Both the position numbers and the translations under genes were made by a program. Shown piece by piece: positions 2,499 through 42,475 of a stretch of DNA of 64,000 nucleotides; position 1 is the stretch's first letter, and each line of letters begins with the position of its first letter. Source of the DNA: Bryopsis sp. KO-2023. Taxonomy: Eukaryota > Chlorophyta > Ulvophyceae > Bryopsidales > Bryopsidaceae. The stretch lies in the NCBI GenBank assembly GCA_030272585.1, contig BSYQ01000005.1, forward strand, positions 2,418,001 through 2,482,000. Direction: 5' to 3'. The notes below the pieces were generated by a model. That model ran no database searches. It was given only the letters and a program-made list of their open reading frames with translations, and had not been told where the DNA came from.

Positions 2499-3703
2499 CT
2501 TCTAAACACCCAACCAGGTACCCAACCTGGCACCCAACCAAGTATGGGACAATCCGTGAATCAAGACGGAGCACTTCCATCGAGTAACCCGTATTACGGG
2601 TGGGGTTCGTATCCCTTACCTCCATCAAGCCAGCCACAGGGTGGTTATCGATCTGGCGGTGGTGGAGGTGGACCCGGAGGTGGACCTGGGGGTGGTGGAG
2701 GCGGAGGAGGAGGAGGACCACCCGGTAGTGGAGGGGGTTCATTCCCGTCTGTGCCGGGTGGCGGTGGGGGTGGAGGATGGCCATACCACCCAGGTGGTGG
2801 TGGTGGCGGTGGAGGTGGGGGTCCTCCGGACCCAAACCTAGGCTTTGCAGCCCCGCAAGATCGCCACGGACGGATTCCGTCATCCGTTCGTATCCCTTTC
2901 CCAAAGGCTTTCTCAGGAGATGGCCAACGATGGATCAGAGACTGGCAGCTGGAAATGACGGTCTACTGTCAAACTCTGGACCTCGACGAGAGCTTATGGT
3001 TCAGGCTCTTTCGCAGCAATCTGACCGGAGCCGCTGCTCAGTGGCGAAACGTTCAGGATCTGCGTACCAGGGAGGGGAAAAGACAACCAGTCGCGAACTG
3101 GATTGAGTTTGTTGAGGAACTGGTCCAAGCATTTGAACCCACTCGCATGTCTGATGTAGCCAGGCGCAAACTGCGAGGCCTGAAACAGACAGGGTCAGTG
3201 CATCAGTACATTGTCGCTTTCCGCGAACAAGTGCTGAGGATCCCAAACATGACCGACGAAGAACAGTACTTCTTCTTCGTGGACGGTCTTAAGTTCCATG
3301 TAAAACAACAAACCGTTGCTCATGTCCCGCAAGGAATTGAGCAGGCGATCGAGACCATACTATGGATCCGATCACGATCTAATCGGTCGTGGATTGATCG
3401 GTCCGACCGATTAAATCGTGATCGGGTTTTTCCGATCAGATCGATCGCCGATCAAATCGGTTTGGCCGATCATCGATGGAGATCGGCCGATCACCAATCT
3501 GATCGGCTGACCGATTTAATCGGCCAACTTTGATCGGCCGATCACGATCAAACCGATCAACGTCGGCCGATCAAGTGCCGACAGGTCGCGGCGCTTGATC
3601 GGGATCGAGATCGGGATCGGAGATGCCGATTAGATCGGATCATGATCGGTCAATTGATCGGTCCATCACAAATGCCGAGAAATCACCACCCGCAGGTGTT
3701 TCT

Positions 3704-3778
3704 GGGGTGCAGGGATTCGAACCTGGGACCTAACAGACTAGAGACAGACGCATTAACGCTTGGACCACTCGGAGCCAC
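3704..3778 (-). other. tRNA-like module, left partner of divergent pair
   Basis: Read on the minus strand it has a Leu/Ser-like A box (TGGCTCCGAGTGG) and a perfect B box (GGTTCGAATCC, at 3713-3723). TATATAA on the same strand (3801-3807) ends 23 bp before the module start, the usual place of an upstream TATA for RNA polymerase III. The acceptor strands do not pair well, so I call it tRNA-like, not a functional tRNA gene. Confidence 0.6.
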
Positions 3779-3864
3779 GGTCACTAGGTCATCCGTGTCA
3801 TTATATACCTCAGTTTGTCGGACTGACAGATCACCTATATAATGACACGGATCACCTACAAACC

Positions 3865-3939
3865 GTGGCTCCGAGTGGTCCAAGCGTTAGTGAGTATGCT
3901 TCTAATCCGTTAGGTACCCGGTTCGAATCCTTCCACCTC
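3865..3939 (+). other. tRNA-like module, right partner of divergent pair
   Basis: A box TGGCTCCGAGTGG and B box GGTTCGAATCC (3920-3930). TATATAA at 3836-3842 lies 23-29 bp upstream, mirroring the left partner. It is followed by a short hairpin (CACC-TGCG-GGTG; TTCG loop in other copies) and a TTTT run at 3971-3974 that could end RNA polymerase III transcription. The acceptor stem is poorly paired. Similar pairs lie in the copies at 5742-7301, 9541-10565, 17579-33841 and 31728-32847. Confidence 0.6.
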
Positions 3940-4920
3940 AGAAACACCTGCGGGTGGTGACTTGTCGGCATTTTCGCGAGACCGATCAATTCATCGATCA
4001 AATGATCAATACCGATCATGATCGGATGCAGGTCCGATCACGATCGGCCGATGACGATCACACCGATCAAGGTCAGCCGATGAAGTGCCGACAGGTCGCG
4101 GCGCTTGATCGTGATCGGGATCGTGATCGGAACAACCGATCAGATCGGTGATCGGCGAACCGATCACGATCACGATCAACATGTGATCGGACGATCAAGA
4201 GCACGATCAACATTTGATCGGCCGATCACGATCACGATCACCGATCAGCCAAAAATGAAAAAAAAAAAAAAAAAAACCGATCATTGCTAAAATCGGTTCT
4301 AGGACGCAGTTATGATGTCGGATTACTGCTGTGACCTAATATTACCTTAGTTTTGGAAGATCGATCAGATCCATAGTATGATCGAGACGGCGGCGAGATT
4401 GGATGCCATTGCCTCAACCGACGGAGGAAACTTTCGCGGCCGTGGAAACTGGCGCGGAGGTAAAGGCCTAGGCCAGAACAAAAAGCAAAACCAACCCCAG
4501 ACTGATGACACAAACCAGATGGGTAATCAGCAGCAACCTCAGCCAGACCAGGCACAAAATATTGGCCAGGGGCGAGGTAGCGGAAGGGATGGTGGCCGAG
4601 GTCGCGGACGAGGTGGTGGGAGGAACCAAGGACGTGGAGGTGGAGGCGCGAATCCTAAATGCTTTATGTGTGGAAAAACGGGGCATATCCAAAGTAATTG
4701 TCCAGAGAGCGATAAGTTCAGGAAATGGTTAAACGAAAAAGCCGAATGAACAGAGCCCAGACTCGTTCGGCGAGACGTAAAAGGGCACGCCGCCACAAAT
4801 ATAAGCAGCGCCGAAAACTTCTAAGAAAAGAAAGGGAAGCTCAAAAAGCACATGAGAATAAAAGAGCACTGGGTGAAAAAGAAAAGAATGCTACCCAAGG
4901 TGCAGAGGGATCGATAATGA

Positions 4921-5741: not shown

Positions 5742-7301
5742 CATACTATGGACGTGATCGGAAATGATCGGCCGTCCATTTTCAATGTCAGGACAGGTCG
5801 TTTCACTGATCTGACCTGACACGATCTCGTTCCACATGATTCTAAAAATGATCGGTTTTTTTTTTTTTTTTTTTTACCGATCATGATCGATGATCGTGAT
5901 CGTGATCGGCCGATTAAAACCTGATCGATGATCGTGGTCGGCCGATCAAAGCTTGATCGTAATCGGGATCGGGCTTCCGATTATCGATCTAATCGGTTGC
6001 TCCGATCACGATCCCGATCACGATCAAGCGTTGCGACATGCAGACGCCTAATCGGCCGATCAAGATCGGTGAAACGCCGATTAATCGGATGTTGATCCGA
6101 TCACCTCCGACCATGATCGGCCATGGATCAATTGATCGGAATTTAATTTAAGATTCCGATCATGATCGGTCCCATGATCAATTGATCGGTCAATTGATCG
6201 GTCTTACGAAAATGCCCACAAGTCACCACCCGAAGGTGTTTCTGGAGGTGTAAGGACTCGAACCTAGGACCTCACTGACTGGAATCAAGCAAATCAACGC
6301 TTGGACCACTCTGAGCCACGATTAGAGTGTGCTCCGTGTCATTATATACCTGATCACTCAGTCCGACAAACTGAGGTATATAATAACACGGATGACCTAG
6401 TGATCGTGGCACAGAGTGGTCCAAGCGTTGATTTGCTTGATTCCAGTCAGTGAGGTCCTAGGTTCGAGTCCTTACACCTCCAGAAACACCTTCGGGTGGT
6501 GACTTGTGGGCATTTTCGTAAGACCGATCAATTGATCATGGGACCGATCATGATCGCAGCTCCGATCCCGATCACGATCTCGATCAAGCGTCGCACCCTG
6601 TCAGCACCTGATCGGCAGCAGAGATAGGACTTGGGCCAAATTTTTGGTCCGACTCCGGTCCGGTCCGGTTACGGTCGGGTTACGGTCACCGTACTACGGC
6701 CGTAACTCCGTACCGTAACCGGAGTAATATGTTGTTTTTACGGTACGGAACAGGTACGGTATAACTACGGTAGGCCCTAAATCACCGTGAAGTAGCGTGG
6801 TTCAGTGGTAAAGCGTTAGGCTGCAGTTAGTAGGGTCGCGGGTTCGAATCCCCCTGGGTTCCTTTGGAATCGCGGGACCCTGCGGGGGTCACTTTCTACG
6901 GTTTACGGTTGTTACGGCCGTTACGGTCGTTACGGTCCGGTACGGAGCGGTACGGAGTGGTACGGTGCTACGGTTACGGCCGTAAAAGTACGATTTTCTG
7001 ACGAAAATTGTACTCCGGTTACGGTCCGGTTACGGTGGTTACGGTCCGGTTACGGTGACCGTAACCGTAAAGTCCTATCTCTGATCGGCAGTTTTTGATC
7101 GGCCGATCACGATCAGGCCGATCAAAAACTGCCGATCAGGTTGGGCGACCGATCAGATCGATGATCGGCCGATCGTGATCGATGATCGGCCCTGCCAGAC
7201 CTGATCGGCGACCGATCAGATCGGTGATCGGCCGATCACGATCATGATCGGTCTCCCGGTTGATCGGAGACCGATCTGATCGTGATCGGATCCATAGTAT
7301 G
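5742..7301. mobile_element. GATCGG-rich hAT-like element, copy 2, with nested element
   Basis: Inverted ends CATACTATGGA and TCCATAGTATG; 8-bp duplication CATTTAAT at 5734-5741 and 7302-7309. It contains a divergent tRNA-like pair (B boxes near 6253-6263 on the minus strand and 6461-6471 on the plus strand, the latter GGTTCGAGTCC) around a TATATA-bearing palindromic spacer. A different hAT-like element is nested at 6619-7083. The left arm differs from copy 1 and matches the copy at 31728-32847, so there are subfamilies. Confidence 0.9.
6619..7083 (+). mobile_element. GTTACGG-rich hAT-like element with one tRNA-like module, copy 1
   Basis: A 465-bp element with inverted ends CAGAGATAGGACTT and AAGTCCTATCTCTG and 8-bp duplication ATCGGCAG (6611-6618 and 7084-7091). 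The interior is composed of GTTACGGT/ACCGTAAC variants. A tRNA-like module at about 6792-6862 has A box TGGTTCAGTGG and B box GGTTCGAATCC, with TATAACTA at 6760-6767 about 25-32 bp upstream, and is followed by hairpin GGGACCCTGCGGGGGTC. A second copy of the same length lies inverted at 22627-23091. Confidence 0.92.
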
Positions 7302-9540: not shown

Positions 9541-10565
9541 CATACTATGGATCCGATCACGATCTAATCGGTCGTGGATTGATCGGTCCGACCGATTAAA
9601 TCGTGATCGGGTTTTTCCGATCAGATCGATCGCCGATCAAATCGGTTTGGCCGATCATCGATGGAGATCGGCCGATCACCAATCTGATCGGCTGACCGAT
9701 TTAATCGGCCAACTTTGATCGGCCGATCACGATCAAACCGATCAACGTCGGCCGATCAAGTGCCGACAGGTCGCGGCGCTTGATCGGGATCGAGATCGGG
9801 ATCGGAGATGCCGATTAGATCGGATCATGATCGGTCAATTGATCGGTCCATCACAAATGCCGAGAAATCACCACCCGCAGGTGTTTCTGGGGTGCAGGGA
9901 TTCGAACCTGGGACCTAACAGACTAGAGACAGACGCATTAACGCTTGGACCACTCGGAGCCACGGTCACTAGGTCATCCGTGTCATTATATACCTCAGTT
10001 TGTCGGACTGACAGATCACCTATATAATGACACGGATCACCTACAAACCGTGGCTCCGAGTGGTCCAAGCGTTAGTGAGTATGCTTCTAATCCGTTAGGT
10101 ACCCGGTTCGAATCCTTCCACCTCAGAAACACCTGCGGGTGGTGACTTGTCGGCATTTTCGCGAGACCGATCAATTCATCGATCAAATGATCAATACCGA
10201 TCATGATCGGATGCAGGTCCGATCACGATCGGCCGATGACGATCACACCGATCAAGGTCAGCCGATGAAGTGCCGACAGGTCGCGGCGCTTGATCGTGAT
10301 CGGGATCGTGATCGGAACAACCGATCAGATCGGTGATCGGCGAACCGATCACGATCACGATCAACATGTGATCGGACGATCAAGAGCACGATCAACATTT
10401 GATCGGCCGATCACGATCACGATCACCGATCAGCCAAAAATGAAAAAAAAAAAAAAAAAAACCGATCATTGCTAAAATCGGTTCTAGGACGCAGTTATGA
10501 TGTCGGATTACTGCTGTGACCTAATATTACCTTAGTTTTGGAAGATCGATCAGATCCATAGTATG
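9541..10565. mobile_element. GATCGG-rich hAT-like element, copy 3 (appears identical to copy 1)
   Basis: A 1025-bp insertion with ends CATACTATGGA and TCCATAGTATG; 8-bp duplication GTCAGAGG at 9533-9540 and 10566-10573. By eye its sequence equals copy 1 (3356-4380) throughout, shifted by 6185 bp, with the same tRNA-like pair, poly-A tract and ends, while the flanking duplications differ. That supports two independent and very recent insertions rather than a duplicated block. Confidence 0.92.
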
Positions 10566-13934: not shown

Positions 13935-14697
13935 CATACTATGGATCCGATCGCCGACCAGACCTGCCAGGGCCGATCACTGATCTAATCGACCCATCCG
14001 ATTAATCGGCGGTTTTTGTTCGGCTGACCATCGATCAAGCCGATCAGATTTCGCCGATCAGGTGCCGACAAGGCGCGGCGCTTGATCAATCGGATCATGA
14101 TCGGTCATTTTCGATGAATTGAACGGTCTCACAGAAATGCCTACAAGTCACCACCCGAAGGTGTTGACATACGTGATCAGTCGGTACGACAAACTGAGGT
14201 ATATAATGACACGGATGACCTAGTAACCGTGGCTCAGAGTGGTCCAAGCGTCGATGCGCTTGCTTCCACTCTATGAGGATTCTGGTTCGAATCCTTCCAC
14301 CCAAGAAACACCTTCGGGTGGTGACTTGTAGGCATTTTCGTGAGACCGATCAATTGATCATGATGCCGATCAATGACAAGGTACCGACCATGGTCGGAGC
14401 AGATCGGATCAACGTCCGATTAATCGGCGTTTCACCGATTATAGTCGGCCGATCACGTGCCGGCAGGTCGCAGCGCTTGATCGTGATCGTGGTGGTGATC
14501 GGAAGACCGATCCCGATTACGACCAAGCATTGATCGGCCGATCACGATCATGATGATCGATCAAAAGTTAAAAAAAAATAAATTCGATCATTTCTAATCT
14601 TGGACGGAACGAAATCGTGTCAGGTCAGATCAATGAAACGACCTGTCCTGACATCGGTTCTGGACGACCGATCTTTGACGATTACGTCCATAGTATG
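13935..14697. mobile_element. GATCGG-rich hAT-like element, copy 4 (one tRNA-like module, no matching flanks)
   Basis: Ends CATACTATGGA and TCCATAGTATG are present, but the 8 bases on either side (CGTGATAG and AGTACAAC) do not match. Only the right tRNA-like module remains (B box GGTTCGAATCC at 14284-14294); the left is missing although its flanking CACCACCCGAAGGTG block survives. It may have arisen by recombination between two copies, or a flank was lost. Confidence 0.85.
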
Positions 14698-14973: not shown

Positions 14974-14981
14974 TTGGAGCC

Positions 14982-17244: not shown

Positions 17245-18528
17245 CAGTGAGGTCACCCAATACCGCCGGTGTGTGTTAGCTCAAAAAAACCGGCAGTGTA
17301 TCGAGTACGACGGTATTCACATTATAGGTCAAGAATGACACAAAAGTCTAATCGAATGAAATCGCTGGCAAGCAAATTCGCAACCGCAGTCACATCGAAG
17401 ATTTAGTCCCAATCGCCGCGTACCATTTCGCCGCATCCCACTACGCCGCCGTCAGACAAGCGCATTTCAACACGTGGCTATACTTTTCAAACTTTTCAAG
17501 TCACTTTCGCGACGACTACGGCGCTTGAGAACGAACGTCTGTTGCCCTCGCGCGAACGGATGGGTGTGCACCAATGGCCATACTATGGATCCGATCACGA
17601 TCAGATCGGTCGCCGATCAGGTCTGGCAGGGCCGATCATCGATCACGATCGGCCGATCACCGATCTGATCGGTCGCCCAACCTGATCGGCAGTTTTTGAT
17701 CGGCCTGATCGTGATCGGCCGATCAAAAACTGCCGATCAGGTGCGACGCTTGATCGAGATCGTGATCGGGATCGGAGCTGCCGATCAGATCGGTATCATG
17801 ATCAATTGATTCCGATCATGATCGGTCCCATGATCAATTGATCGGTCCATCACAAATGCCCACAAGTCACCACCTGAAGGTGTTTCTAGAGGTGTAAGGA
17901 TTCGAACCCAAGACCTCACTAACTGGAATCAAGCAAATCAACGCTTGGACCACCCTGAACCACGATCACTAGGTCCTCCGTGTTATTATATACCTCAGTT
18001 TGTCGGACTGACTGATCAGGTATATAATGACACGGAGCACACTCTAACCGTAGCTCAGAGTGGTCTAAGCGTCGATTTGCTTGATTCCAGTTAGTGAGGT
18101 CCTAGGTTCGAATCCTTACACCTCCAAAAACACCTTCGGGTGGTGACTTGTGGGCATTTGTGATGGACCGATCAATTGACCGATCAATTGATTATGGGAC
18201 CGATCATGATCGGAATCTTAAATTAAATTCCGATCAATTGATCCATGGCCGATCATGGTCGGAGCTGATCGGATCAACGGCCGATCAATCGGCGTTTCAC
18301 CGATCTTGATCGACCGATCACGTGCCGACAGGTCGCGACGCTTGATCGTGATCGTGGTCGTGATCGGAGCTGCCGATCAGATCGATAATCGGAAGTGATA
18401 GTGAAGCTTGTGGGTGACGCAATAGCGGTCGGCTGTGTTGGTTGGATTCGTGATAACTTGCTGGCTAACGCAAGTATACTTGTGGGGTTCGTTGCTTCAG
18501 ACAACTCTCTAGCTAGCGCGGTTGTGAA

Positions 18529-19181
18529 CAGACCTGGGCCCGACCGGACCGGCAGCGAAAAACCGGTCCGGTCCGGTCCAACCTGTCCATGGACCGGCTG
18601 ACCTGTCCGGTCCAGCGAAAAAACGCCGGTCCTTGCAAGACCGGACAGGTTGTGACCTGTCCGGTCCTGTCCACTCCGGTCCAGTCAACCTCGGAAATCT
18701 GCAGAAATCTGGACCGGTTTTCTGACAGATTTTCCGTTTTTAGACAGGTCACACCCACATTTCGCCTTTATTAGACCGGCGATGTGACCTGTCTAAAACC
18801 GGAACGACCCTGGCTTGACAGGGTTGTTCTCCTGTTTTAGACCGGCTCCAGGTCGGTCTGGACAGGTGGGCTGCCTGTCCAGACCGACCTGGAGCCTGTC
18901 TAGAACAGGTCACACAATTAAGCACTTTTTAATGTGTTAACCGACTGAGAACTGATTCAATTGATTAAAGAACGAAGTATTATTTATTATTTGCATTTTT
19001 AATGCATGAATGACGTGAGCCAAGCCCACCAGCCACCGACTAGAGGGAGTCGGTCGACTCAAGGAGGATTCGAACCCGGGTTGGCTAAGCCCGAGTCGAA
19101 GACACTATCACTAGTGGACCCCACCACAGGGACGCTCAAAAGGGGGCCGTTACTTTTAAGTACCCGTTTAATTTTGGAAAA
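18529..19181 (-). repeat. ACCGGTCC-rich dispersed repeat with tRNA-like B box, copy 1
   Basis: Starts CAGACCTGGGCCCG inside the 3' LTR piece of element B. The arm is dense in ACCGGACCGG, CCTGTCC and AGACCGGC motifs. Near the other end the minus strand holds a B box GGGTTCGAATCC (19066-19077) and a Ser/Leu-like arm. A second inverted copy lies at about 45990-46641. The CAG start resembles the hAT-like ends here, but no flanking duplication was found because the surroundings are rearranged; the far end is uncertain. Confidence 0.65.
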
Positions 19182-20062
19182 TTACGGGTTTGCCAACATT
19201 GCTCTCTTTGAGCTTGGTGTAATCGACAACCCGAGATCACGCGCTACCTTGTCATTGATATAGTTTGCGGTACTTCCACAATCAATGAATGCATAAAGGT
19301 CCGTGGTCTTGATCCGTGCTTTTACTTCGTACCCTCTCACAGGCACTTCTTGAATTTTTAACAGAGGGCATGTGTCACCCTTGGTTGACGAAGTTGATCG
19401 AACTTCTGACACATTAACTCGCTCTGTGGTAGACCGCTGGGTTGTTTCTGACCCACTATCGTCTACGTCTGCAGGCAGGGACTCCTGTAGACTACTCTGT
19501 GACTCCAATGAGCCCACAGATTCACTAACAGAGGGAAGAGATGTAGATGACGCATGAGGCGCGTCCATCTCATCCGGTGTGCTTTCCTTCTGTTCATTTT
19601 TCCAATCGCAGTTGTCATGTGCCGATTGGGTAGATGTGGAGAGTGTCTCTGTTCTCTCTTCACGCGGTGTACTAGTCCGCTCCTCAGGTTTTCCGCTGTG
19701 AGTACAAACCTTTTTCGAGGCACCTACTTTTGATCTTAGCTTCCTACGCCGCCTACGAACTCTGTTTCGCTTACGACGTTTGCGTCGGCCAGGCTCAGAC
19801 GAAGCAGTTTCCTGCCTGGCGGTCAGTTTAACATTTGTTTTACATTAGGGAGGTTTTTCACCTCCTCTAACTTAGGACATTGCCTCACAGGATGACCCTT
19901 TTTTCCACAAAGATAACAATCATATCCCCCTCCCCCCTGGGGGTTCTGTCTTCCCTGATTGGCTTGTCCTCTTCCACGGTTACCACCACCGCGTCCACGT
20001 CCACCACCACCACGTCCTCCTCCTCTACCTTGTTGCTGTTGCTGCTGCTGTTGTACTCCTGC
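19182..20062 (-). pseudogene. Zinc knuckle and protease part of element B (fossil)
   Basis: On the minus strand: poly-Gln and RGG-rich stretch, a CCHC knuckle (CYLCGKKGHPVRQC, about 19895-19940), a charged linker, then the start of a retropepsin domain with FIDCGSTANYIN (about 19255-19290). Equivalent to 4560-5300 of element A. Separated from the gag region by LTR element C. Confidence 0.78.
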
Positions 20063-20067
20063 GGCAG

Positions 20068-20707: not shown

Positions 20708-20723
20708 TTGGTTTCGGAGCAGG

Positions 20724-26700: not shown

Positions 26701-28668
26701 TCTTTGGTGACGTAGTTGGTGTATATTTGTGTGAGAACAAAACAAATCAGAAAGGTTGAGAACTGAACGTTTGGTTACAATCTGGGGCAGCAGATTATTC
26801 TGACTTTGGCAGAGCAAATTCAGGCCTTCAGTTTTTCAGGCTTGTTTTCTGAAGTAGTTTGTTCAGTTGTTTGGGGTTATTTTGGCTGCTCCGAACAGCT
26901 CAACTTTCTGTAGCTGGTACAGTGATATGGTTTTGCATGGTTGCATGGTTGCTTGAGGACAAGCTCCATTTCAGATGGGGAGGGGGCCTCGGTTCAACCG
27001 ATGCGTTTCATTTTTGTTTTTCCAAAATTGCATTTGTTTCAGTAGGTGTTGCAAAGAGACACACACCTTCATTAAGGTTTCTGAGAAAAGGAAGAGGTTG
27101 TTAGTAATACTCTTTCAGAGCTGATGGGAATTCATGGATAGTGTTTGCAATATCTTGGTGGTCAGTAAATATGTGTTTTCAGTTCTACAGTTCTTGCAGA
27201 GTGGATTAAGGAACTAGGCATAGTTCACTACTTTAGGACGATGCAGAAGTGAACATTTGCAGTCTTGGCAAGGGTGTTTCTGGTGGACTGAAATATTCTG
27301 GTTCACGACACATATTTTGTTGTGGATTTAGTTGGTTTGGAATTTACAGAAGTTTGCATGACCATTGATTGAATCAGTTAGATCGGTGCTTACTTGAGGT
27401 TTACTGAATTTCAGAGGGTACATTGGTATGGATTCTTTCAGCACTCAGTTGTTGGATATTTATCAAAGAAAAAGGAAATATCACTGAGTGAAGTCTTGCT
27501 GGTTGAAAGAAAGGGTTGATTTCATTAAGTCAGGATAGGCCAAGTGGAATTTCTGGGTTTTCATATACTCTGGTTTGTATAGATTCATATATGGGAAAAC
27601 CGGAGAAGGCATAGAAGAACTCGGGAACAATTAATGCAATCAATCTTTAGGTACTCTGAACATTCTTGACTCAGGAGAGAGGAAGCAGGAACAGAAGGGA
27701 GCATGCTTCAGGGAAAAATTGAGGAGCAAGCTCACTTCTTCATTGAAGAACATCTGGAGACTTGTTGTTGCAAGATCCTATCGCTCGCTTTTCATTGCTA
27801 TGCGGAAGGCTAACTTGGTGGAGACATGTGGCAGCTCACTATGCAGCAAGGAGCTTCAACTCTGAGGAGCTGCTGGAGTGACTGGTGATCTCTTGGTTTT
27901 CAAAAGGTTGGAAACTTCTTTTGGGAGACAGAACTTCAGTCATTCAACCTTCTTCTTTACTCCAAGACAGTTTGCATATTGTGAAAGTGGCATTTTGCTG
28001 AGTTGCAAATTTTGGCAGCAACAGTTTGTAGAGTTCTGGATTGTGGTAGTACCAGTTTGCAGGGTTGCAGACTGTGGCAATAGTTGCAGAGATAATTTGC
28101 AGACAGTGGTGGCAGTTTGCAGGTTTTCAATATGCAATTGTTGAGTTGGAAATTATGGGACACTATGAAGTTTCAGAAGTTTTGGTAGTTGCAAAATATT
28201 TGGTGTCTTTCTTTTATCATTGAAAAACGATATTTGAGCAGAAAGGTGAATTGCTGAGACTCTAAAAGCTGCAACAGATTTTTGCTATTTTTCTGTTGGC
28301 TTCTCAAATAGTCAATATTAAAATCTATGGAGTTTATAGGCTGCAGAAAGGAATTGAATTTTGTTCAGTAGCACATTACAATTCCGAAAGGGAAGTTCTT
28401 CGGTTTTCTTATTTGTGTTATTGGGATTTTTCTGAGTAGTTTTCTAGGCAATTCAGAGGTATGCTCCAGAATGTTGAGAAAGAAGCATATATTTTTCGAA
28501 AGGATATTTTTAGTTGGTCAGTCCTTCCAAAAGGTGTTTGGTAGTTGGCAAGATGGGATAGCAACTTTTCAAACTGAACTTTGAGGCAGAAGTTCCTTTG
28601 GGTATTTGAAATCCAAGGGACAAGGTTGTTATAAGTCTCTTAGGGCAGTAAGGGACTACTGCCAACTA
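20724..28668 (+). other. Non-coding interior of element C
   Basis: From about 20760 to 21870 the sequence is dense in GCGCAG-type motifs (GATGCAGGGATCGCGCAGCT occurs in three tandem units near 21575-21635). From there to 28668 it is G/T-rich on the plus strand, with recurring CAGATTTTC, GGCAGATTATTTTCTG-like and TGGCAG motifs and stops in all frames. It probably serves as packaged but untranslated RNA; that is inference from the class. Confidence 0.7.
22627..23091 (-). mobile_element. GTTACGG-rich hAT-like element with tRNA-like module, copy 2
   Basis: A 465-bp inverted copy of the element at 6619-7083, with 8-bp duplication GTTGAGGT (22619-22626 and 23092-23099). Very few differences from copy 1 (one in the tRNA-like module, GTTAGT against GTCAGT). 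The tRNA-like module lies on the minus strand at about 22845-22920. It is the innermost level of the nest. Confidence 0.92.
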
Positions 28669-28680
28669 GATGGGGAGGAA

Positions 28681-29320
28681 TGTAAGGATTCGGCAGAATC
28701 AAAGGAGATTCAGGCAGACCTGCAGGCTTGCAGACTGGCAGTGATTGGGCTGACAGGTTAGAGCTGCAGGTTGACTGCTATGATTCTGCAGAAGCAGGAA
28801 TGGTTCAGGTCCTTCAGACCTGCAGACTAAAGGACTGGTAGTCAGCAGATTGGCAGACTGACGAAGTGGCAGAGTAGTCGGGCTGACAGGGTTGCTGATG
28901 GCAGACAGGTGCTGGCAGCGTTGCAGAACGTGGGCTGCAGAGCTGGCAGGCACAAGGTTCTAGAAGGTCTTAGGTGGCAGACTCAGGACCGCAGTACCGT
29001 GCAAGGTGTCTGAGGCTGCATGTCATGAAAGGGGACTGAAAGGAACTTATTAGTTTGATGGTCTGCAACACTGATGCAGACTGATGTTATGGCTTAGGAT
29101 CAGTTTGGATCAGGGTTGGAAGAAACGGTATAAGTTGTTGGGGTTTGGACATTCTTGTAACCTTAGTTTGGAACCTGATCTCGCCCTTGAACCTTGCTAG
29201 GTTCAAGTGTCTCTCCCATGGTCGTTCAATAGAACGGCAGTTCAGACTGGCAGACCGGCAGGGTCGCAGTCTTCAGTGTATTGAAGCAGAAAAAGCGATC
29301 TGCAGGGCAGATTCGTTACA
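28681..29320 (+). repeat. 3' LTR of element C
   Basis: Copy of the 5' LTR, offset by 8613 bp, directly after the purine tract. No difference from the 5' LTR was noticed, implying recent insertion. Confidence 0.93.
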
Positions 29321-31399
29321 GGCAGCTTGTGGTGGTGCTTGGGCTGGTGGTGTAGGGTTCTGCTGCTGCTGACCCTGATTCTGGCCTTTCTTTTTCTTTC
29401 CACCACGCCAGACTCCTTTCTTCTTTTGATTGGCTTGCCCTCCTTGGCCTTGTGTTCCAACTCCAAGGGCTTCCAATCGTTCGGCGGCTATGATGGCAGC
29501 CTCGACATCTCGAGGTACCGTTGCAGCGACCAGCTTCTGAACTTCACTCTTGAGTCCATCAACGAAGAGCAAATACTGGTGATCCTCTTCGAGGTCTGGA
29601 ATTCTCAAGATCAAGCGCTGAAACTCTTTGACGAACTGTTTCACCGTTCCAGTCTGCTTGAGTTTGTGGAGGTCACGCCACGCTTCATCTCGATCACTAC
29701 TGAATTCGAAAGCTGTAGCTAAGCCATCCATGAAGTCCATCCAGCCACGGAAGGGTGGTCTTTCACCTCGGTGAATTTTCAATTCTTGCATCGTTAACCA
29801 ATCCGAGGCAGCCCCATAAAGGTTGGTGGCCATAATCGATTGCCACTGTGCTTCATGCACTCCGCAGGTTCTCAAGTACCGCGTCATGAGCACTTGCCAT
29901 TTACGGGCTTTTGGTTCTCCACTTCCGTTAAATGCGCGAGGCATTTGCAACTTGACGGTGCTAGGCAACCACTGTCCTTGCCTAGGAGGTCCTGGGCCTG
30001 CTGGTCCAGCGCCACCTCCACCTCCACCTCCACCAGGAGGTCCACCGGGAGGTCCACCGCCTCCACCATCTCCACCTCCACCACCACCTCCTCCGCCATC
30101 AGGCGCACCTGGAATGCGGGAAGGTGGGCGGTTTCGTCTGTCGCGGTAATCATCACCGCCATCATCATCTGGGTCGTCATCACCAGGGTCTCCAAAGTTT
30201 CCGCGCATGCGGGGAACTCGACTGGGTCCACCAGTAGACTCATATGAACCAAGTGCAGCAAAGGGATTATTTTCTACCCTTGCTCCCAATGCACTTAACC
30301 CAAGTCCCAATCTCCCAGTACGTGTGGGGATCTGCATGGGTTCTTTTCCTTTCTCTTCTCTGACCTGTGCCTTAGCACGCTCAAGGTCAATTTGATATAA
30401 CACTTCTGCTGAGGAGAGAACTCTTGGGTTAGTTCGTGTGGGTCTACGTGATCCATCGGCAGAGTCGGGTTCTGAGATGCGTATACCAGGCTGAGCTCTT
30501 GTACTTGGAGGTATCAACTGAGGGAATGTGAAATCAGCGCCTGGTGCGCTGTCCACTGCAGTGCATGGTGGTGCTTCTGCAGCAACAATTTCACCCTCCT
30601 CGGCCTGTACTGCTGGAGGAGCCGGTATTGTTGAGGTTCCTGCCCCAACCATTCCTACCGCGAAGCTTTGGTCTAGTGGCGGCCATGATGCAGCCAACTG
30701 CTTTACTGATTTCTTCGGCAGCGGCATCCCAAAGGCTGAGTCCTCAGGCTCAGGGGAAGTTGATTCTTCACGCTCTGGTGATACTGCACGAGCATCACTT
30801 CCACTTTGGGCACCCTGACTTCCGCCACTCACATCCTCCATGCTTTGTTCCAGGCCGGATAATCTTAAGGCAACCACATCAGCTGCATCTTGCTGCTGAT
30901 CCCAGGTTTTGGCTGCCTTTTTCTCCAAGGCAATCAAATCTTTTTGAATTGCTACTCTTGAGCTCTGCAAACGCTTCACCTCAGCACCTTGTTTATGCAA
31001 GGACTCCCGAAACAATTCTAGAGTCCGCTCGACTTTTTCGTTGGAATCTGCAACAGTTCCTAATAACCCTTCAATTCTCCGCCCTTGTACAAGGGATAAC
31101 TCGGAGAGTTGTTTTAACTGAAGTGCTGATGCTTCAGCCATGGTTTTTAGGTCAGCAAAACGAGAATCCGCTTGAATGTCTGCGGCATCCATTCTCATCG
31201 TTATTGCATCCACAGAAGCTCTGATCTCGGCTCTTTCCTTTCTATGATCGATATCTTGGCGTAATAGCCTCTGCTCATATCGACCATGTTGAGCCACCAC
31301 TGTATCCAGCTTCTCCTGTTGCGACAACACCGCATGCTGTGTGGCCTCGACCTGTTGCGCATGCTGATGCTGTGTTTCCAGCGTCTGCCCGATCACCTC

Positions 31400-31503
31400 T
31401 GATAGTAGTAACTCGGGTTTAGGGTTATTGTGTAGTACAATGGGATGTACGACAGGGTTTATAGGGCAGGGGGCCCTCCTGTAAAAATTCATCTTCCCAG
31501 TGA

Positions 31504-31542
<39 letters not shown>

Positions 31543-31574
31543 CTTGTGTCTCGGGGTCCTGGACCCCCTTATCA
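31400..31574 (-). repeat. Solo LTR related to element A, inside element B
   Basis: A 175-bp sequence beginning TGATAG and ending CTTATCA with 5-bp duplication ACCTC (31395-31399 and 31575-31579). It shares the GATGTACGACAGGGTTTA block and CT/TG simple repeats with the LTR at 13366-13521. A solo LTR is what remains after recombination between the two LTRs of a full element. The strand is nominal. Confidence 0.82.
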
Positions 31575-31727
31575 ACCTCTGATGCGCCAGCCAGCTGGTT
31601 CGACACAGAGGCCTCAGCATGAGCTAACCTCTGTCCCAGCGTCTGGTCAACTTGCTGCAGGTGACCCCTTAGCCCGTGGGCTAAATCGTCCACACGGTCA
31701 TGGACCGCATCCACATCCTCTCTTAAG

Positions 31728-32847
31728 CATACTATGGACGTGATCGGAAATGATCGGCCGTCCATTTTCGATGTCAAAAACAGGTCGTTTCACTGATCTG
31801 ACCTGACACGATCTCGTTCCACATGATTCTAAAAATGATCGGTTTTTTTTTTTTTTTTTTTTACCGATCATGATCGATGATCGTGATCGTGATCGGCCGA
31901 TTAAAACCTGATCGATGATCGTGATCGGCCGATCAAAGCCTGATCGTGATCGGGATCGGGCTTCCGATTATCGATCTGATCGGCAGCTCCGATCACGACC
32001 ACGATCACGATCAAGCGTCGCGACCTGTCGGCACGTGATCGGTCGATCAAGATCGGTGAAACGCCGATTGATCGGCCGTTGATCCGATCAGCTCCGACCA
32101 TGATCGGCCATGGATCCATTGATCGGAATTTAATTTAAGATTCCGATCATGATCGGTCCCATAATCAATTGATCGGTCAAATGATCGGTCTTACGAAAAT
32201 GCCCACAAGTCACCACCCGAAGGTGTTTCTGGAGGTGTAAGGATTCGAACCTAGGACCTCACTGACTGGAATCAAGCAAATCGACGCTTAGACCACTCTG
32301 AGCTACGGTAAGAGTGTGCTCCGTGTCATTATATACCTGATCAGTCAGTCCGACAAACTGAGGTATATAATAACACGGAGGACCTAGTGATCGTGGTTCA
32401 GGGTGGTCCAAGCGTTGATTTGCTTGATTCCAGTCAGTGAGGTCCTAGGTTCGAATCCTTACACCTCCAGAAACACCTTCGGGTGGTGACTTGTGGGCAT
32501 TTGTGATGGACCGATCAATTGATCATGGGACCGATCATGATCGGAATCAATTGATCATGATACCGATCTGATCGGCAGCTCCGATCCCGATCACGATCTC
32601 GATCAAGCGTCGCACCCTGTCGGCACCTGATCGGCAGTTTTTGATCGGCCGATCACGATCAGGCCGATCAAAAACTGCCGATCAGGTTGGGCGACCGATC
32701 AGATCGGTGATCGGCCGATCGTGATCGATGATCGGCCCTGCCAGACCTGATCGGCGACCGATCAGATCGGTGATCGGCCGATCACGATCATGATCGGTCT
32801 CCCGGTTGATCGGAGACCGATCTGATCGTGATCGGATCCATAGTATG
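31728..32847. mobile_element. GATCGG-rich hAT-like element, copy 6, inside element B
   Basis: A 1120-bp insertion with ends CATACTATGGA and TCCATAGTATG; 8-bp duplication CTCTTAAG at 31720-31727 and 32848-32855. Divergent tRNA-like pair with B boxes near 32241-32251 (minus) and 32449-32459 (plus). Closely related to copy 2 (5742-7301) minus the nested element there. Confidence 0.92.
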
Positions 32848-33185
32848 CTCTTAAGGCTTCCGCATCAGCTCCCATGTCTATGTCGACATCTGCTTGCTGG
32901 ACATTGTGGATGTTCTGGACGTTTGTTTGTTGGTACACAACATTGGGTGCGTCAGGCAATTCCTCATCGAACTCAGGTTCAATCCCTGGCTCTTCAACTT
33001 GAGGCTCGCGCACTGCCAATGCGTGTTCACGGTCAGCCATGGTCTCTCAGCCACTATTTGGGAGTACTCAACAACCACAGTTGGAGTTTCTCTCTACCAA
33101 ACAAACAAACACAAACGTTTGTTGCGCCACGTTCACAAGTTTCGATCTCAAGAACTTAAAGTTCTTGCCTCGCTCCGAAACCAAT

Positions 33186-33604
33186 TGATAGTGAAGCTTG
33201 TGGGTGACGCAATAGCGGTCGGCTGTGTTGGTTGGATTCGTGATAACTTGCTGGCTAACGCAAGTATACTTGTGGGGTTCGTTGCTTTAGACAACTCTCT
33301 AGCTAGCGCGGTTGTGAACGCTACTAGAGCACTTGGGTTGGGAAGTGATTGCGTCAGGCAAACACTTAACACACACACACACAAACACACACACAAGCGG
33401 GAACACACCAATCCCACGAATCCCGAGTCTTTACAAAGAATAAGAATGTCAAAACAACGAGTGGGCCTCTTAAGTACCCCTAAGTGTAGTACGCTGACGC
33501 ATGCCCCAAACTCTGAGTCTAATCTGTCTTACTCGCGAACCCACATGCGTCAGCCACCCTCGGCTCTATCCCAAACTACCTCGTATAGCGCTAAAAGACT
33601 AACA
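33186..33604 (-). repeat. 5' LTR of element B
   Basis: A 419-bp LTR; on the plus strand it runs from TGATAGTG to ACTAACA. It includes a CA-rich simple repeat. Its first 134 bases match 18396-18529 with one difference (TTGCTTTAGAC against TTGCTTCAGAC), identifying the remaining piece of the 3' LTR. Confidence 0.9.
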
Positions 33605-34751
33605 GGAAGCCCGATCCCGATCACGATCAGGCTTTGATCGGCCGATCACGATCATCGATCAGGTTTTAATCGGCCGATCACGATCACGATCATCGATCAT
33701 GATCGGTAAAAAAAAACCAAAAAAAAACCGATCATTTTTAGAATCATGTGGAACGAGATCGTGTCAGGTCAGATCAGTGAAACGACCTGTCCTGACATCG
33801 AAAATGGACGGCCGATCATTTCCGATCGCGTCCATAGTATGATGCCAATGGCAGGGTTTACTCCCACTAGCGCGTTTTTCCAGAAGTCGTCGCTAAGCCG
33901 ATTGTGGCGAACAGAAAAAGTTCGAAAAGTGTAGTCACGTGTTGAAATGCGCATGTCTGACGGCGGCGTACTGGGATGCGGCGAAATGGTACTCGGCGAA
34001 TTTGCTGGCAAATTCGTAGCCGCAGTCACATCGAAATCATTTGGCGCTGGCAAGCAAGTTCGTAGCCGCAACCATGCCTCCAAAGCGAAAACGTTTGAGC
34101 ATGGAGGACAAGAATAAGGTACTCGATGATGTTGAGGCTGGTATTCTAGCGAGAACAGGCATTGCTGAAAAATGGGGAATAGGCGAGAGAACATTGAAAG
34201 ATATTTTCAGGGAGAAAACGAAATGGAGACAGCTTGTGGGCGATGGTGGCAACAATGCCTCGAAATCCATGAGACCCACGCTCTCTCCTACACTGGAATT
34301 TGATCTCATCTCTTGGGTAGGCCTTGCTAGAAAACATGGCATGCCCATTATAGCTGAAATTATTCAAAGAAAAGGTAGAGATATAAGAGACAGATTATTA
34401 GGAGGGACTTCTATTTGTGAGGAGGAAAGAAAAAAGTTGGAATCGTTCAACGTCAACAAAGGATGGGTAATGAACTTTGCTAGGAGGAACATGTTAAGAT
34501 CCAAACTTCTTCACGGAGAAGCCGGTTCAGCTTCGAATGATGATGAAGAAATCAAGGTGCTTCGTGAAGAACTCTCCAACTTCGACCCGGAATACATTTA
34601 TAATGTTGATGAAACAGCATTGTATTTTAAACTCCTTCCGAGGCGAACATATGTAACGGAGGGGAAAGAGATGCAAAAAACGTTGAGAGGGACCAAACAA
34701 ATAAAGATGAAAGATCGTCTGACAGGTATTGTAGGGAGTAATGCAACTGGG

Positions 34752-35048
34752 TGTAGCGCTCGTGTGGTACAGCGCCGAGTCAGGTGAGACTGGCGGTACA
34801 ATAGTACCACAGGTCAGCTCACGAGGTAGTGAGTGGATAGTGGAGGTCCACTCTGGTACAACTTGGGAACATGATAGATGTTCATAGGTTGTATCAGGTA
34901 GAGTACTTAAGAGGCCTTCGCGCCCACCCTTTGTTCATTATTTCGTTCTTTAAAACGCTTTTCCTTCGTGACCCGTCCTGTGTGATAATAAGTGCTTCAG
35001 CCCAACAATCTACCACTGAAAACGGTGAAATCCACTAACACCGTAACA
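34752..35048 (+). repeat. Solo LTR inside the Tigger-like transposase
   Basis: A 297-bp LTR from TGTAGCGCTCG to CCGTAACA with 5-bp duplication CTGGG (34747-34751 and 35049-35053). A diverged inverted piece of the same family is at about 13690-13909. It belongs to none of elements A-D. Confidence 0.88.
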
Positions 35049-35511: not shown

Positions 35512-35660
35512 GTGCCCCCTCCCTAATGTGAAGCCGCCCTCGGCTTTACTAGGGAATCAAATGCTGATTGGCATCAAGCAAAAGATAGCTGTCTTTTGAC
35601 ATTTGCACTTTCAGAGAAAGAAGATCATCATCATCCAGTGGCCTACTGTGATATGATGTC

Positions 35661-40058: not shown

Positions 40059-40593
40059 TTTCTTGCAGTATCCCTCTACTTCAAGCCCGCGGCGAAGAAG
40101 TGAGTATGAGAGTTATTTTTAGACCAACACCTGTGTTGGGGGAAACCTCTGTGGATATTCCCTTTGTCCTTTAGACAAATCTGTAACCACCTCTTTGTGT
40201 GGATAACTCTTCTTTTCGTGGTGTTTCCTTGTAAACTGCTTTAATTTAATTTTTCTTTGGACACAACAAGCACCTCTAGGGTCTGCTTGAAAAATCTCTA
40301 AAAATCTCAAAATATCGTCCAATTCTGACGAAAAATATTAAGGACCTCTTGGGTCTCCTTAAAATAGACGAAGGACCTCTTGGGTCTCCTTCGCAACTCG
40401 AAAAACCACTATGCAGAAAGTCTGAAGCAATACCCTAACTTTGACAGAGCATAACTTTCCGCACACTGCTCGGAATAAACCCCAACTGGACTCAAACGAA
40501 GCGGATTTTTCTTAGCTTACTTTTTGACACCTTATTTGTCCAATTCAGACCTTAGACGCCGAAGTTATCGCCGTTTCCGTGACGGACTCTTCA
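40059..40593 (-). other. Leader of element D
   Basis: About 535 bp between the primer binding site and the polyprotein start. It contains a repeated AAGGACCTCTTGGGTCTCCTT motif on the plus strand, a small hairpin-forming pair. No gag-like frame. Confidence 0.5.
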
Positions 40594-40611
40594 CCTGCTC
40601 CGAAACCAAAC

Positions 40612-40884
40612 TGTTATAAACCTCTCTCTCCTAGGAAAATAACCTCCCAGCGCCCTTCCTTGAAGTCCCTTTAACCCATCAAACCCCCACTCCTTGATGG
40701 GACCCTTGAGATGACAGGGATCACCTCAGGGCGAGACACCTGGGCTTGCTATGAGTCATCCTTTCAGCACATGTGCTATAATGATCTCATGGACCTTAAG
40801 CATATGACTAGAGCCATGTTAGTGCCCACGACTAACCCTTGAGCTCTAGTAGTGCATAGACATACTCGGCGTACACTTATAACA
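40612..40884 (-). repeat. 5' LTR of element D
   Basis: 273 bp; the primer-binding-site candidate lies at 40594-40608 on the minus strand. Confidence 0.93.
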
Positions 40885-41275
40885 CACATGGAGCACACCT
40901 TGTGGACGAGCAAGTGGTCATCAAGTTCCTTCCACCGAACTCAACGAGTGTCCACCAGCCGATGGAGATGGGAGTGATTGCTGCCTTGAAGGTTCGATAT
41001 AGGCACTTGCTGTTGGATCGCATGTGTCTTGATCTTGAACAAAAAGAAAAATTACGAGAGGCGGCGAAAAAAAATCCACGGGGTATGAGAGGTGTCGGAA
41101 ATGAATTTTCTGCCCATTTGTTGGATGTGGCGGAAATCCTAAAAGAAGTGTGGGAAGGAATGAAAACCGAGACCATTGCGCGATGTTGGTTGAAGGCCGA
41201 TATCTTGCCGCCGGCAAGTTGCCGGTTGACATCCAAAATGACCTGGAGTCCATTTATGGGAAAGTGTCTTCACGG

Positions 41276-42475
41276 CAGAGTTGTGCCGAAGTCGTTTTTG
41301 CGACAACGACAACGGCCGTTGACAATTAACGGCGTTGTCGTTGTCGCAAAAACGACTTCGGCACGACTCTGATACATTCTCCAATAATGAGATGTGAGCA
41401 GAGCTGGGCTGTACCGTAACGACCCCCAAAACACGGTGCGAACCGTACCGTACCGTACCGTACCGTACCGTAAGGGGTCGTTACGGTACGGTACGGTATC
41501 GGATATTTTCACGTTACGGTACAACATCGGTACCGGGTCGGTACAATACGTTGTCGCCAACGGGCGCCACCCGTGTAACGGTCGTTGTTGCAACGTGTCA
41601 CTGGCGTTGTTGTACCGCCCTACACGGTTCGAGTAACGATGTTCGTTACAACAACGTAATGACGTTGCAATAACGTCATGTGGATGACGTACAAAGTGAC
41701 CCCCGCAGGGTCCCCAGAACCCAAGGGAACCGAGTGGGATTCGAACACCGTACCGCACGATGCCGAGTCATCTACACTCGCTAAGCCAAGTGGACCACGA
41801 TGATTTTGTGGTTGTTGCAATAATATACCCCAATTTCACAGAATTACAAACAGATTAAGGTATATCATCGCAACAGCCACAAAATCATCGTGGTCCACTT
41901 GGCTCAGCGCTCAGTGTAGATGACTCGGCATCGTGCGGTACGGTGTTGGAATCCCACTCGGTTCCCTTGGGTTCTGGGGACCCTGCGGGGGTCACTTTGT
42001 ACGTCATCCACATCATGTGGACCACATGACGTTACTGCAACGCCATTACGTTGTTGTACCGACCTGGCCGTTGTTGTAACGTGTTATCGTTACACGTAAC
42101 GCAACCGATCGTTGTTGTAACGTCTTGCCTCGGTGCGGACGTTATAGCAGCCGGCGTAGACGTTACTGATAACGTACTGCGTTACAACAACGCTTTGGCG
42201 TTACAGTAACGTCGGATCGTTGTTGTACCGGACTTGGACGTTGTTGTACCGACTGGGTCGTTGTTGTAACGTGTGCAACGTGTTGTAACGTCCGGTCGGT
42301 GCGTGCACCGACCGGACACGTTACTGTACCGACCCTGTGCGTTACGGTACGGTGCGTTACAAACGGGTTCCTGCCCAGCTCTGGATGTGAGTTGAAAAAC
42401 AAGTAGCTACCAAAATGGCGATGTATATCCTTGAGACTGATGTCCGAGTTGCATGCAGAGTTGTGCGCCGTTGCA
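41276..42475 (+). mobile_element. hAT-like miniature element, CAGAGTTGTGC family, copy 2 (truncated, with nested insert)
   Basis: Begins CAGAGTTGTGCCG with the GTCGTTTTTGCGACAACG hairpin as in copy 1; the far end stops within the short hairpin (CAGAGTTGTGCGCCGTTGCAAC), lacking the last 14 bases or so. No matching flank was found. A second hAT-like element (41399-42383) is inserted in its middle. Confidence 0.82.
41399..42383. mobile_element. GTAACG/TACCGT-rich hAT-like element with divergent tRNA-like pair
   Basis: A 985-bp insertion with ends CAGAGCTGGGC and GCCCAGCTCTG and 8-bp duplication GATGTGAG (41391-41398 and 42384-42391). Arms consist of CGTTGTTGTAACG, TACCGTACCGT and similar motifs. 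The centre has two mirror-image tRNA-like modules starting at 41798 (minus) and 41890 (plus), each with TATAT 24-29 bp upstream, and each followed outward by hairpin GGGACCCTGCGGGGGTC, which also occurs in the GTTACGG family. Confidence 0.92.

Follow-up and report, generated by a model that had tools for sequence, protein, structure and literature searches.

Transposons of the hAT family are recognized by 8-bp target-site duplications (TSDs), short terminal inverted repeats (TIRs), and subterminal repeats, and in the common view non-autonomous DNA transposons consist of little beyond ends that the transposase of another element recognizes. The elements described here resemble hAT non-autonomous elements and MITEs of the Hermes and Ac/Ds type in their 8-bp TSDs, short TIRs, subterminal repeats, and the presence of a hAT domain by the TIR, but differ from them in having as their core a cassette of the Pol III promoter type that is common to families. 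They are also like tRNA-derived SINEs, in that they occur in many copies and have A and B boxes of the tRNA type but no recognizable tRNA; unlike SINEs, they have TIRs, 8-bp TSDs, an added TATA, and, in three of four families, a back-to-back twin. What matters here is that the core carries a promoter-like unit of the SINE kind, present in many copies, conserved in its TATA and B box between subfamilies, and common to families with different ends.

Two further systems offer partial analogies. Dada DNA transposons are reported to insert into small-RNA genes and leave 6- to 7-bp TSDs (PMC3706591); they too are DNA transposons tied to Pol III genes, but in the present elements the promoter lies inside the element and the insertion sites vary. 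The B2 SINE is reported to be a transposable chromatin boundary (PMC8136502), i.e., a mobile element of the Pol III promoter kind with a chromatin effect of the kind proposed below; however, it is a retrotransposon, and for the present elements that effect is one that we infer. Judged by title and the opening of the abstract, none of the papers listed in a literature search dealt with a Pol III promoter cassette common to families of such elements.

Nine elements and their hAT affinity

The window (the whole 64,000-nucleotide stretch of DNA analyzed, from a 91-Mb eukaryotic genome) contains nine short non-autonomous elements, of which all but those at 13935 and 17579 have a perfect 8-bp TSD. 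Seven intervals proposed in the initial annotation proved exact in this respect. Three are GATCGG-I elements with subfamily assignments Ia (3356..4380; TIR CATACTATGG/CCATAGTATG, TSD ATCGAGAC), Ib (5742..7301; TSD CATTTAAT), and again Ia (9541..10565; TSD GTCAGAGG), the last being 100% identical to the 3356 copy across stretches of 300 bp and 239 bp; a fourth, If, has twin modules (31728..32847; TSD CTCTTAAG). Nested inside the Ib copy is a third-family element (6619..7083) with CAGAGATAGG ends, one type III module, and the TSD ATCGGCAG, and a second member of this family, with its single module on the minus strand, lies at 22627..23091 (TSD GTTGAGGT). The GTAACG element occupies 41399..42383 (TIR CAGAGCTGGGC/GCCCAGCTCTG, TSD GATGTGAG). 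The interval 17579..18395, listed as a GATCGG element in its own right, is indeed the left part of one (Ic) and holds both modules, but the whole element is cut by a probable LTR retroelement of ~15 kb, resumes at 33605..33841 with a second copy of GGAAG, and has no 8-bp TSD at its ends (17579..33841). Beyond the five GATCGG copies named at the outset, a sixth, Id (13935..14697; only a right module found, no TSD), had been overlooked.

Genome copy numbers came to 230 TIR 17-mers, 140 type I TATA 17-mers, 280 type II/III 19-mers, and 25 type III A-box 22-mers, with 0 in each control. An 8-bp TSD was found in 25/25 fetched GATCGG-I copies with both exact TIRs (30 loci sampled, five without an exact TIR) and in 4/6 copies in the window; in 14/19 GTAACG copies with both TIRs (22 loci sampled, three without a TIR match); in 6/8 GATCGG-II copies, whose flanks were inspected by eye; and in both third-family copies of the window, plus a copy at locus L041. 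Because both of their ends have a TIR and an 8-bp TSD, we rejected the classification of the elements as SINEs.

Among 100 GATCGG TIR sites listed, 19 have a PF05699 hAT transposase domain 1.5 to 5 kb inward of the TIR, 56 have a type I TATA inward, a single site has both, and 26 have neither. Together with the TSDs, this bears out the hAT-like character first suggested for the GATCGG family. The one GATCGG-TIR transposase examined is a 747-amino-acid open reading frame (PF05699 E value, 2.8e-18; Hermes E value, 2.5e-9). In this copy, a search across 10.2 kb did not reach the far TIR, a B-box word scan of the first 6.75 kb detected no cassette, a scan of the next 3.5 kb for TIRs and GATCGG words detected no arm, and the second open reading frame had no Pfam match up to an E value of 0.1.

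Promoter-like cassettes at the element centers

The type I cassette of the 3356 element extends from inverted repeat to inverted repeat at 3687..3956 (changes within copies were counted in a broader frame of 304 bp). Its left module, on the minus strand, has a TATA box at 3800..3807, an A box at 3765..3777 (aligned with tRNA-Leu; strict-consensus match, 3757-3767), a B box at 3713..3723, and a 3' inverted repeat, CACC-TGCG-GGTG, at 3687..3698. On the plus strand, the right module has its TATA box at 3836..3843, A box at 3866..3878 (aligned with tRNA-Leu; strict-consensus match, 3876-3886), B box at 3920..3930, and the same 3' repeat at 3945..3956, with a TTTT that starts 51 bp past the B box start. 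In 9/9 type I halves, TATA and B box are 84 bp apart, and there are two type I A-box candidates, the tRNA-Leu-aligned one 30 bp after TATA and the strict-consensus one 40 bp after it.

The type II cassette of the GTAACG element is a 328-bp twin (41682..42009). Its right module, on the plus strand, has TATA at 41861..41868, an A box at 41891..41902, and a B box, off consensus in this copy, at 41943..41955; its left module, on the minus strand, has TATA at 41820..41827, an A box at 41786..41797, and a B box at 41736..41748. The type III module of the 6619 element, on the plus strand, has TATA at 6760..6765, an A box at 6798..6808, a B box at 6841..6851, and the 3' inverted repeat GGGACCCTGCGGGGGTC at 6874..6890. 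TATA precedes the B box by 83 and 80 bp in the two type II halves and by 81 bp in type III, and it precedes the A box by 30 bp in type II and 38 bp in type III. The 23 to 29 bp originally given for the TATA position was close but not exact.

How similar are these centers? The initial annotation held that the GATCGG and GTAACG families have the same one. Their layout is indeed the same, yet between GATCGG-I and GTAACG there is no BLAST match longer than 12 bp, and sequence identity is found instead with GATCGG-II, a second GATCGG family, whose elements elsewhere in the genome match the GTAACG 328-bp cassette at 94.8 to 95.4% in 8/8 copies. GATCGG-II and GTAACG have unlike ends and arms despite this common cassette, which argues that cassettes move between families; the common core shows such passage, presumably by recombination. 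In all, four families of elements have cassettes (GATCGG-I, GATCGG-II, GTAACG, and the third family). Although the three types differ in most other columns, each has retained the TATA, the A and B boxes, the inverted repeat, and after it a GTSACTT-like motif.

The boxes are well beyond chance. A strict A-plus-B scan of the window returned 14 sites, against a mean of 0.04 in 100 first-order Markov shuffles: 11 of type I (GATCGG-I), two of type III (third family), and one stray. The stray site (19076, minus strand) was left out of the module count because it lies outside the elements and has just 11 bp between its A-box match and its B box. In the 13 others, the two boxes are spaced much as in tRNA genes, as in type 2 Pol III promoters, and the two GTAACG modules, which the strict scan missed, were taken from the alignment, giving 15 A/B-box modules at element centers, where the initial annotation had placed them.

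Upstream of the boxes, 11/11 type I and II halves have a TATA followed by a G at a distance of 29 bp. Host U6 genes are like types I and II in this regard, with TATATAA 29 to 30 bp before the start in 5/5 (counted by eye); the cassettes differ from them in the addition of tRNA-type A and B boxes, although the single U6 gene examined over its full length contains the word GGTTCGAG. Host tRNA genes have a TATA in 1/42 distinct upstreams examined. If the start is assumed to be 29 bp past TATA, the tRNA-aligned A box falls at +2 in types I and II (+12 for the type I strict match); an A box at +2 is closer to the start than in ordinary type 2 Pol III genes. Judged by their motifs, the modules look like hybrid Pol III promoters in which a U6-like TATA precedes tRNA-type A and B boxes, and Pol III transcription from the cassettes is predicted.

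Box conservation and alternative readings of the cassette

We posit that these are non-autonomous hAT-type transposons in which a portable Pol III promoter cassette, in place of a transposase gene, promotes spread, a reading that we hold to be evenly balanced between right and wrong. In this model, the unit would be a U6-kind TATA joined to tRNA-type A and B boxes, with a short inverted repeat at its end; TFIIIB would bind the TATA, and TFIIIC would bind the two boxes downstream of it; the cassette, being so bound, would stay clear of nucleosomes, escape silencing, and be transcribed outward. A hAT transposase acting in trans would then still be able to reach the element ends, and it is through this access that cassette-bearing elements would spread more, with RNA as a possible by-product. 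Against this model count the 26 TIR sites with neither a type I TATA nor a hAT domain and the closeness of the tRNA-aligned A box to the assumed start.

The main competitor is a passive origin, in which a SINE-like or tRNA-derived sequence entered an element, underwent a head-to-head duplication, and has been carried along unused ever since. We judge this unlikely, though it deserves serious weight. Type I aligns with host tRNA-Leu across both boxes, and it resembles tRNA-Leu(AAG) along its length, as a decayed tRNA copy would (Ia right half: score of 44; highest of 100 shuffles, 29). Ib, type II, and Id scored at or below the edge of this control (36 versus 34, 32 versus 31, and 28 versus 29, respectively), which is itself weak since plain shuffles destroy the boxes. 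Among the 47 distinct tRNAs compared, all from fetched loci, the nearest is tRNA-Leu for type I and a tRNA-Gly for type III. Against a passive origin stand the rarity of TATA at the host tRNA genes examined, the presence of cassettes in four families, and the set of motifs kept in three types whose other columns mostly differ.

Nor are the modules, introduced as tRNA-like, real tRNA genes, in that the cloverleaf is lacking: ARAGORN called 0 genes, and the Rfam tRNA model had no match at gathering or at an E value of ≤10, which implies that the boxes, not a tRNA, are what is kept.

Box decay bears directly on both readings. When the nine type I halves are aligned, 6/32 box sites are variable versus 31/63 other sites (TATA, 0/8; B box, 1/11; A box, 5/13), and a placement control gave P values of 0.010 for all boxes and 0.0006 for TATA plus B, values that overstate independence because the nine halves are related. 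(A wider box definition, picked after the alignment was viewed, gave a P value of 0.0001 and was not used.) This conservation of TATA and B between subfamilies is not what a passive origin predicts, but within young copies box decay is indistinguishable from that of the rest, which favors it. With changes counted as events and placed at random, the boxes were not significantly spared in young GATCGG-I copies (P = 0.16) or in young GTAACG copies (A plus B, P = 0.31; with TATA, P = 0.42), and we therefore do not claim selection there. Fisher tests on cells gave lower values for GATCGG-I boxes versus the rest of the cassette (P = 0.009) and versus the arms (P = 0.0006) and for GTAACG versus the arms (P = 0.0033), the comparisons with arms being biased in that the young copies were chosen by cassette similarity; GTAACG boxes plus repeat versus the rest of the cassette gave a P value of 0.72, and the GTAACG TATA, at 8/160 letters changed (5.0%), is above the arms (2.9%). 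Thus, the test set in advance, whether the boxes change less than the sequence around them, came out positive for TATA and B between subfamilies and not significant within young copies, and the proposal of Pol III promoters in unrelated hAT-like elements is supported in part, by promoter-like sequences, different arms, and a center common to two families, with the decay test divided.

A different possibility is that RNA is the product, i.e., that a Pol III RNA of ~110 nt acts in trans, be it by affecting transposase or silencing or by serving as a decoy; we consider this improbable. In all three types the module is followed by a short inverted repeat and then the GTSACTT-like motif, the repeat being CACC-TNCG-GGTG (once TTCA) in GATCGG-I and GACCC..GGGTC in GTAACG and the third family, rather than being confined to two families as first reported. 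A T4 terminator lies 51 to 52 bp past the B box start in 5/9 type I halves, for predicted transcripts of 110 to 111 nt. None of the two type II or two type III halves has a T4 within 60 bp of the B box, which weighs against the promoter model. Weighing against an RNA function, a terminator is missing within 130 bp of the B box in both halves of type II and in four of nine of type I, and that of type III is 153 bp away. The inverted repeat folds if taken alone, but just 1/13 halves includes the local hairpin in its predicted minimum-energy fold (pair probabilities of 0 to 0.41), and the predicted folds differ among cassette types; a conserved RNA hairpin was accordingly dropped, and we claim no RNA-level selection. 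No Rfam family reaches gathering, and 34 weak matches up to an E value of 10 (miRNA families and others) were read as products of the inverted-repeat arms.

Returning to a promoter that aids spread, we offer tentatively, and leaning somewhat against it, a broader version in which the Pol III cassette is a "propagation module" common to DNA transposons, derived from U6-type TATA and tRNA A/B boxes, possibly assembled repeatedly, kept for its outward and mostly twin layout, and traded among hAT families. Were this true, these would be cut-and-paste elements combining SINE promoter logic with hAT mobility. If the cassettes work at all, they would make available natural hybrid Pol III promoters from across a whole genome and would allow one to ask directly whether DNA transposons evade silencing more readily when occupied by Pol III.

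Twin layout and insertion sites

Could the layout itself be the point? Polar fork pausing at tRNA genes is familiar from yeast work, and an outward Pol III pair would meet any replication fork head-on, which might favor replication-linked transposition. The twin outward layout is kept in GATCGG-I, GATCGG-II, and GTAACG, and at least nine close minus/plus pairs, each 290 bp apart, were counted by eye among 100 of the 280 type II/III places listed; the third family, however, has one module only, and we regard a fork barrier as very improbable.

Less probable still, to the point that we give it hardly any credence, is that the modules draw the integration of other elements or steer their own element to Pol III genes. 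A third-family copy does lie within a tRNA-Leu gene that belongs to a tRNA array (L041; TSD GTTCCAGT), but this locus was fetched for its tRNA genes and is thus a biased sample; another is nested in the GATCGG-I copy at 5742..7301, though outside its promoter units. The target duplications of GATCGG-I vary in sequence in 25/25 copies, and its insertion sites include a telomere repeat and retroelement genes, so the attraction of integration raised in the initial annotation finds little support. As separate observations, one insertion has CCCTAAA repeats, and contig C27 contains a split cox1.

Short elements and their central modules

The genome studied here is eukaryotic (91.09 Mb in 28 contigs), and the window, positions 2418001-2482000 of contig C5, holds nine short elements bounded by terminal inverted repeats (TIRs), seven of them flanked by perfect 8-bp target duplications. 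Six belong to the non-autonomous family GATCGG-I (ends CATACTATGG/CCATAGTATG), including a copy at 13935-14697 that was absent from the initial annotation and another, at 17579-18395 plus 33605-33841, that is split by a probable LTR retroelement; the others are one GTAACG element (41399-42383) and two members of a third family, at 22627-23091 and, nested inside a GATCGG-I copy, at 6619-7083. The probable 15-kb retroelement (18396-33604), which has a GGAAG 5-bp duplication and sits in the GATCGG-I element, itself contains further insertions. Element arms are built from one short word per family, repeated in both senses (GATCGG in 3356-4380, GTAACG in 41399-42383, CCGGTCC in 18530-18910, and CTGTGCAG in 43655-44830), and these words are perhaps transposase-binding arrays. 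In three GATCGG-I copies, one of the arms contains a single run of 19-20 A (4258-4276, 5856-5875, and 31843-31862), each time A in the outward reading sense.

At their centers, the elements carry a cassette of one or two modules, or halves (TATA, A box, B box, and inverted repeat), which we call type I in GATCGG-I, type II in GTAACG and in GATCGG-II, a family found elsewhere in the genome, and type III, a single module, in the third family. A scan for a strict B box with an A box no more than 75 bp upstream returned 14 sites in the window, whereas 100 Markov shuffles averaged 0.04; 13 of the 14 lie inside elements, where the A box is matched 43-44 bp ahead of the B box, and the two GTAACG modules were identified by alignment. 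The TATA-to-B-box distance is 84 bp in 9/9 type I halves, 83 and 80 bp in the two type II halves, and 81 bp in type III. Type I offers two A-box candidates, a strict match 40 bp after TATA and a second 30 bp after TATA; the latter aligns with the A box of tRNA-Leu and is used in all type I box counts. The modules, initially annotated as tRNA-like, are rejected as tRNAs themselves: ARAGORN finds 0 tRNA genes in the window, and the Rfam tRNA model matches no module, neither at gathering nor at E<=10. The 14th scan site (19076, minus strand) lies outside known elements and has its A-box match 11 bp before the B box; the surrounding region (19050-19130, minus), with tRNA-like sequence upstream of the strict B box and an inverted repeat after it, is possibly a SINE.

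Comparison with host Pol III genes

The host tRNA sample comprised 208 genes with 60 bp upstream from 30 loci (best 63 of 8630 candidates scored). Its 42 distinct upstreams, mostly from tandem arrays but with one gene from C27, a contig also carrying cox1, contain TATAW between -45 and -10 in 1 case. A U6 search gave 5 matches among the best 47 scored of 6783 candidates, and in 5/5 of the U6 genes found, TATATAA stands 29-30 bp before the gene start (counted by eye). The base 29 bp past TATA is a G in 11/11 halves of types I and II and belongs to GTGG or GTAG. Because TATA is placed as at U6 and TATAW occurs in so few tRNA upstreams, the cassette looks, from its sequence, like a hybrid in which a U6-type TATA stands ahead of tRNA-type boxes. 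Should transcription start at that G, the tRNA-aligned A box would begin at +2; in ordinary tRNA genes, the A box is farther from the start.

The modules were also compared with 47 distinct tRNAs drawn from the fetched loci. Judged against shuffles that destroy the boxes and are a weak control, subfamily Ia (window copy 3356-4380) most resembles tRNA-Leu(AAG) (right half 44 versus a shuffled maximum of 29, left half 38 versus 28) and type III most resembles tRNA-Gly(GCC) of C27 (49 versus 30), with subfamily Ib (36 versus 34), type II (32 versus 31), and subfamily Id (28 versus 29) at or below the shuffle edge. These similarities suggest that the cassette types may have had different tRNA sources.

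Genuine tRNA genes occur in tandem arrays on contig C5 at about 2.78-3.14 and 3.67-3.77 Mb (loci L042-L060), with 10-13 ARAGORN genes on both strands in most 3-kb array loci examined, an arrangement resembling the tRNA arrays of Entamoeba. A further array, locus L041 (5.73 Mb), has similar tRNA matches up to 5.84 Mb; by eye, it holds a third-family element within a tRNA-Leu gene (121-582, target duplication GTTCCAGT) and, between tRNA-Lys and tRNA-Gly, a decayed relative (about 1605-1770). C27 is a probable mitochondrial contig, and its cox1 is probably rich in introns, since the matches fall in four pieces across 12.6 kb (134464-147043).

The predicted RNA, from start to first T4, is 110-111 nt in 5/9 type I halves. 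In the four remaining type I halves and in both of type II, the first 130 bp from the B box contain no T4; in type III the first T4 is at 153 bp. An inverted repeat follows the B box in 13/13 halves; in type I its arms enclose TTCG, TGCG, or, once, TTCA. The repeat folds when taken alone (-3.0 or -7.4 kcal/mol). Because it appears in the minimum-energy fold of only 1/13 predicted RNAs (pair probabilities of <=0.41), an RNA-level role is not supported by the folding models; the repeat may be a relic, or its role may lie in the DNA.

Exchange and conservation of the cassette

A genome search with the GTAACG center (best 40 of 493 candidates scored; 30 fetched) yielded 22 GTAACG elements and 8 GATCGG-II elements, the latter with ends CATACTAGGG/CCCTAGTATG and GATCGG arms. 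By BLAST, the window GTAACG element shares with all eight GATCGG-II copies one 328-bp block at 94.8-95.4% identity, and their arms do not match; since the block is an inverted pair, it also matches in the opposite sense (88.8-89.4%). The central spacer is reversed between the two consensus sequences. GATCGG-I (window 3356) and GATCGG-II differ in their cassettes and share arm pieces of about 18-107 bp (75-100%) among the matches listed. A common block with unmatched arms therefore indicates, at the level of sequence, that the cassette has moved from one element family to another, and we infer recombination as the route. The repeats of types II and III have a 19-bp word in common, of which the genome contains 280 occurrences versus 0 of its reversed control.

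The question of whether boxes decay more slowly than arms, raised in the initial annotation, receives a divided answer: among subfamilies, TATA and B boxes vary less than other sites of the unit, and within young copies the deficit of box changes is not significant when changes are counted as events. Across the nine type I window halves, variable sites number 6/32 in boxes versus 31/63 elsewhere (Fisher p=0.004), and TATA (0/8) and the B box (1/11) are spared more than the A box (5/13); under random placement, P is 0.010 for the boxes together and 0.0006 for TATA plus B, and all of these P values are optimistic because the halves are related. In the 25 GATCGG-I copies, the proportion of letters changed is 0/450 in TATA, 1/650 in A, 3/550 in B, and 3/600 in the repeat versus 178/17925 in arms and 46/5350 elsewhere in the cassette. 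The corresponding values for 16 GTAACG copies are 2/384 in A, 2/416 in B, 8/160 in TATA, and 11/480 in the repeat versus 293/10001 in arms and 68/3853 elsewhere in the cassette. Counted as events, box changes are not fewer than under random placement (GATCGG-I, P=0.16; GTAACG, P=0.31 for A plus B and 0.42 with TATA). A fair reading is that the boxes appear conserved along the lineages that founded subfamilies, which does not prove that single copies are under selection.

Transposase source and proposed mechanism

The GATCGG-I TIR 17-mer occurs 230 times in the genome versus 0 in the control. Among 100 listed TIR places, 56 are followed inward, no more than 800 bp away, by an exact copy of the type I TATA 17-mer, and 19 by a hAT dimerization domain that lies on the same strand at a distance of 1.5-5 kb (domain places being the best 150 of 185 candidates scored); 1 has both, and 26 have neither. 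One hAT-domain copy that was read encodes a 747-aa ORF (PF05699, E 2.8e-18) whose best solved relative is the Hermes transposase (E 2.5e-9) and whose closest relatives among the 8000 best candidates are two proteins at 39% identity; its far TIR was not found within 10.2 kb.

For elements with TIRs and 8-bp duplications, hAT domains adjoining the GATCGG-I TIR, a hybrid promoter layout, and a cassette common to two families, we posit a mechanism in which TFIIIC and TFIIIB would bind the cassette, Pol III would transcribe it, and the resulting open chromatin would benefit transposition. Titles and abstract openings, in a literature set that covers few subscription papers, revealed no DNA transposon that carries a Pol III promoter cassette inside it, an absence that counts as weak evidence; they do describe B2 SINEs as mobile elements with a chromatin-boundary effect (PMC8136502) and Dada as targeting Pol III genes (PMC3706591).

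Other mobile sequences also lie in the window. A pogo/Tc5-like transposase is present in two pieces (34041-34787 and 40902-41372; CENP-B_N below cutoff, HTH_Tnp_Tc5, and DDE_1) with a Ty3-type retroelement between them. Elements with CTGTGCAG repeats, at 2192-2528 and 43655-44830, have hAT-like ends (CAGTCATGGGC, CAGACATGGGC) and match several miRNA models below gathering.
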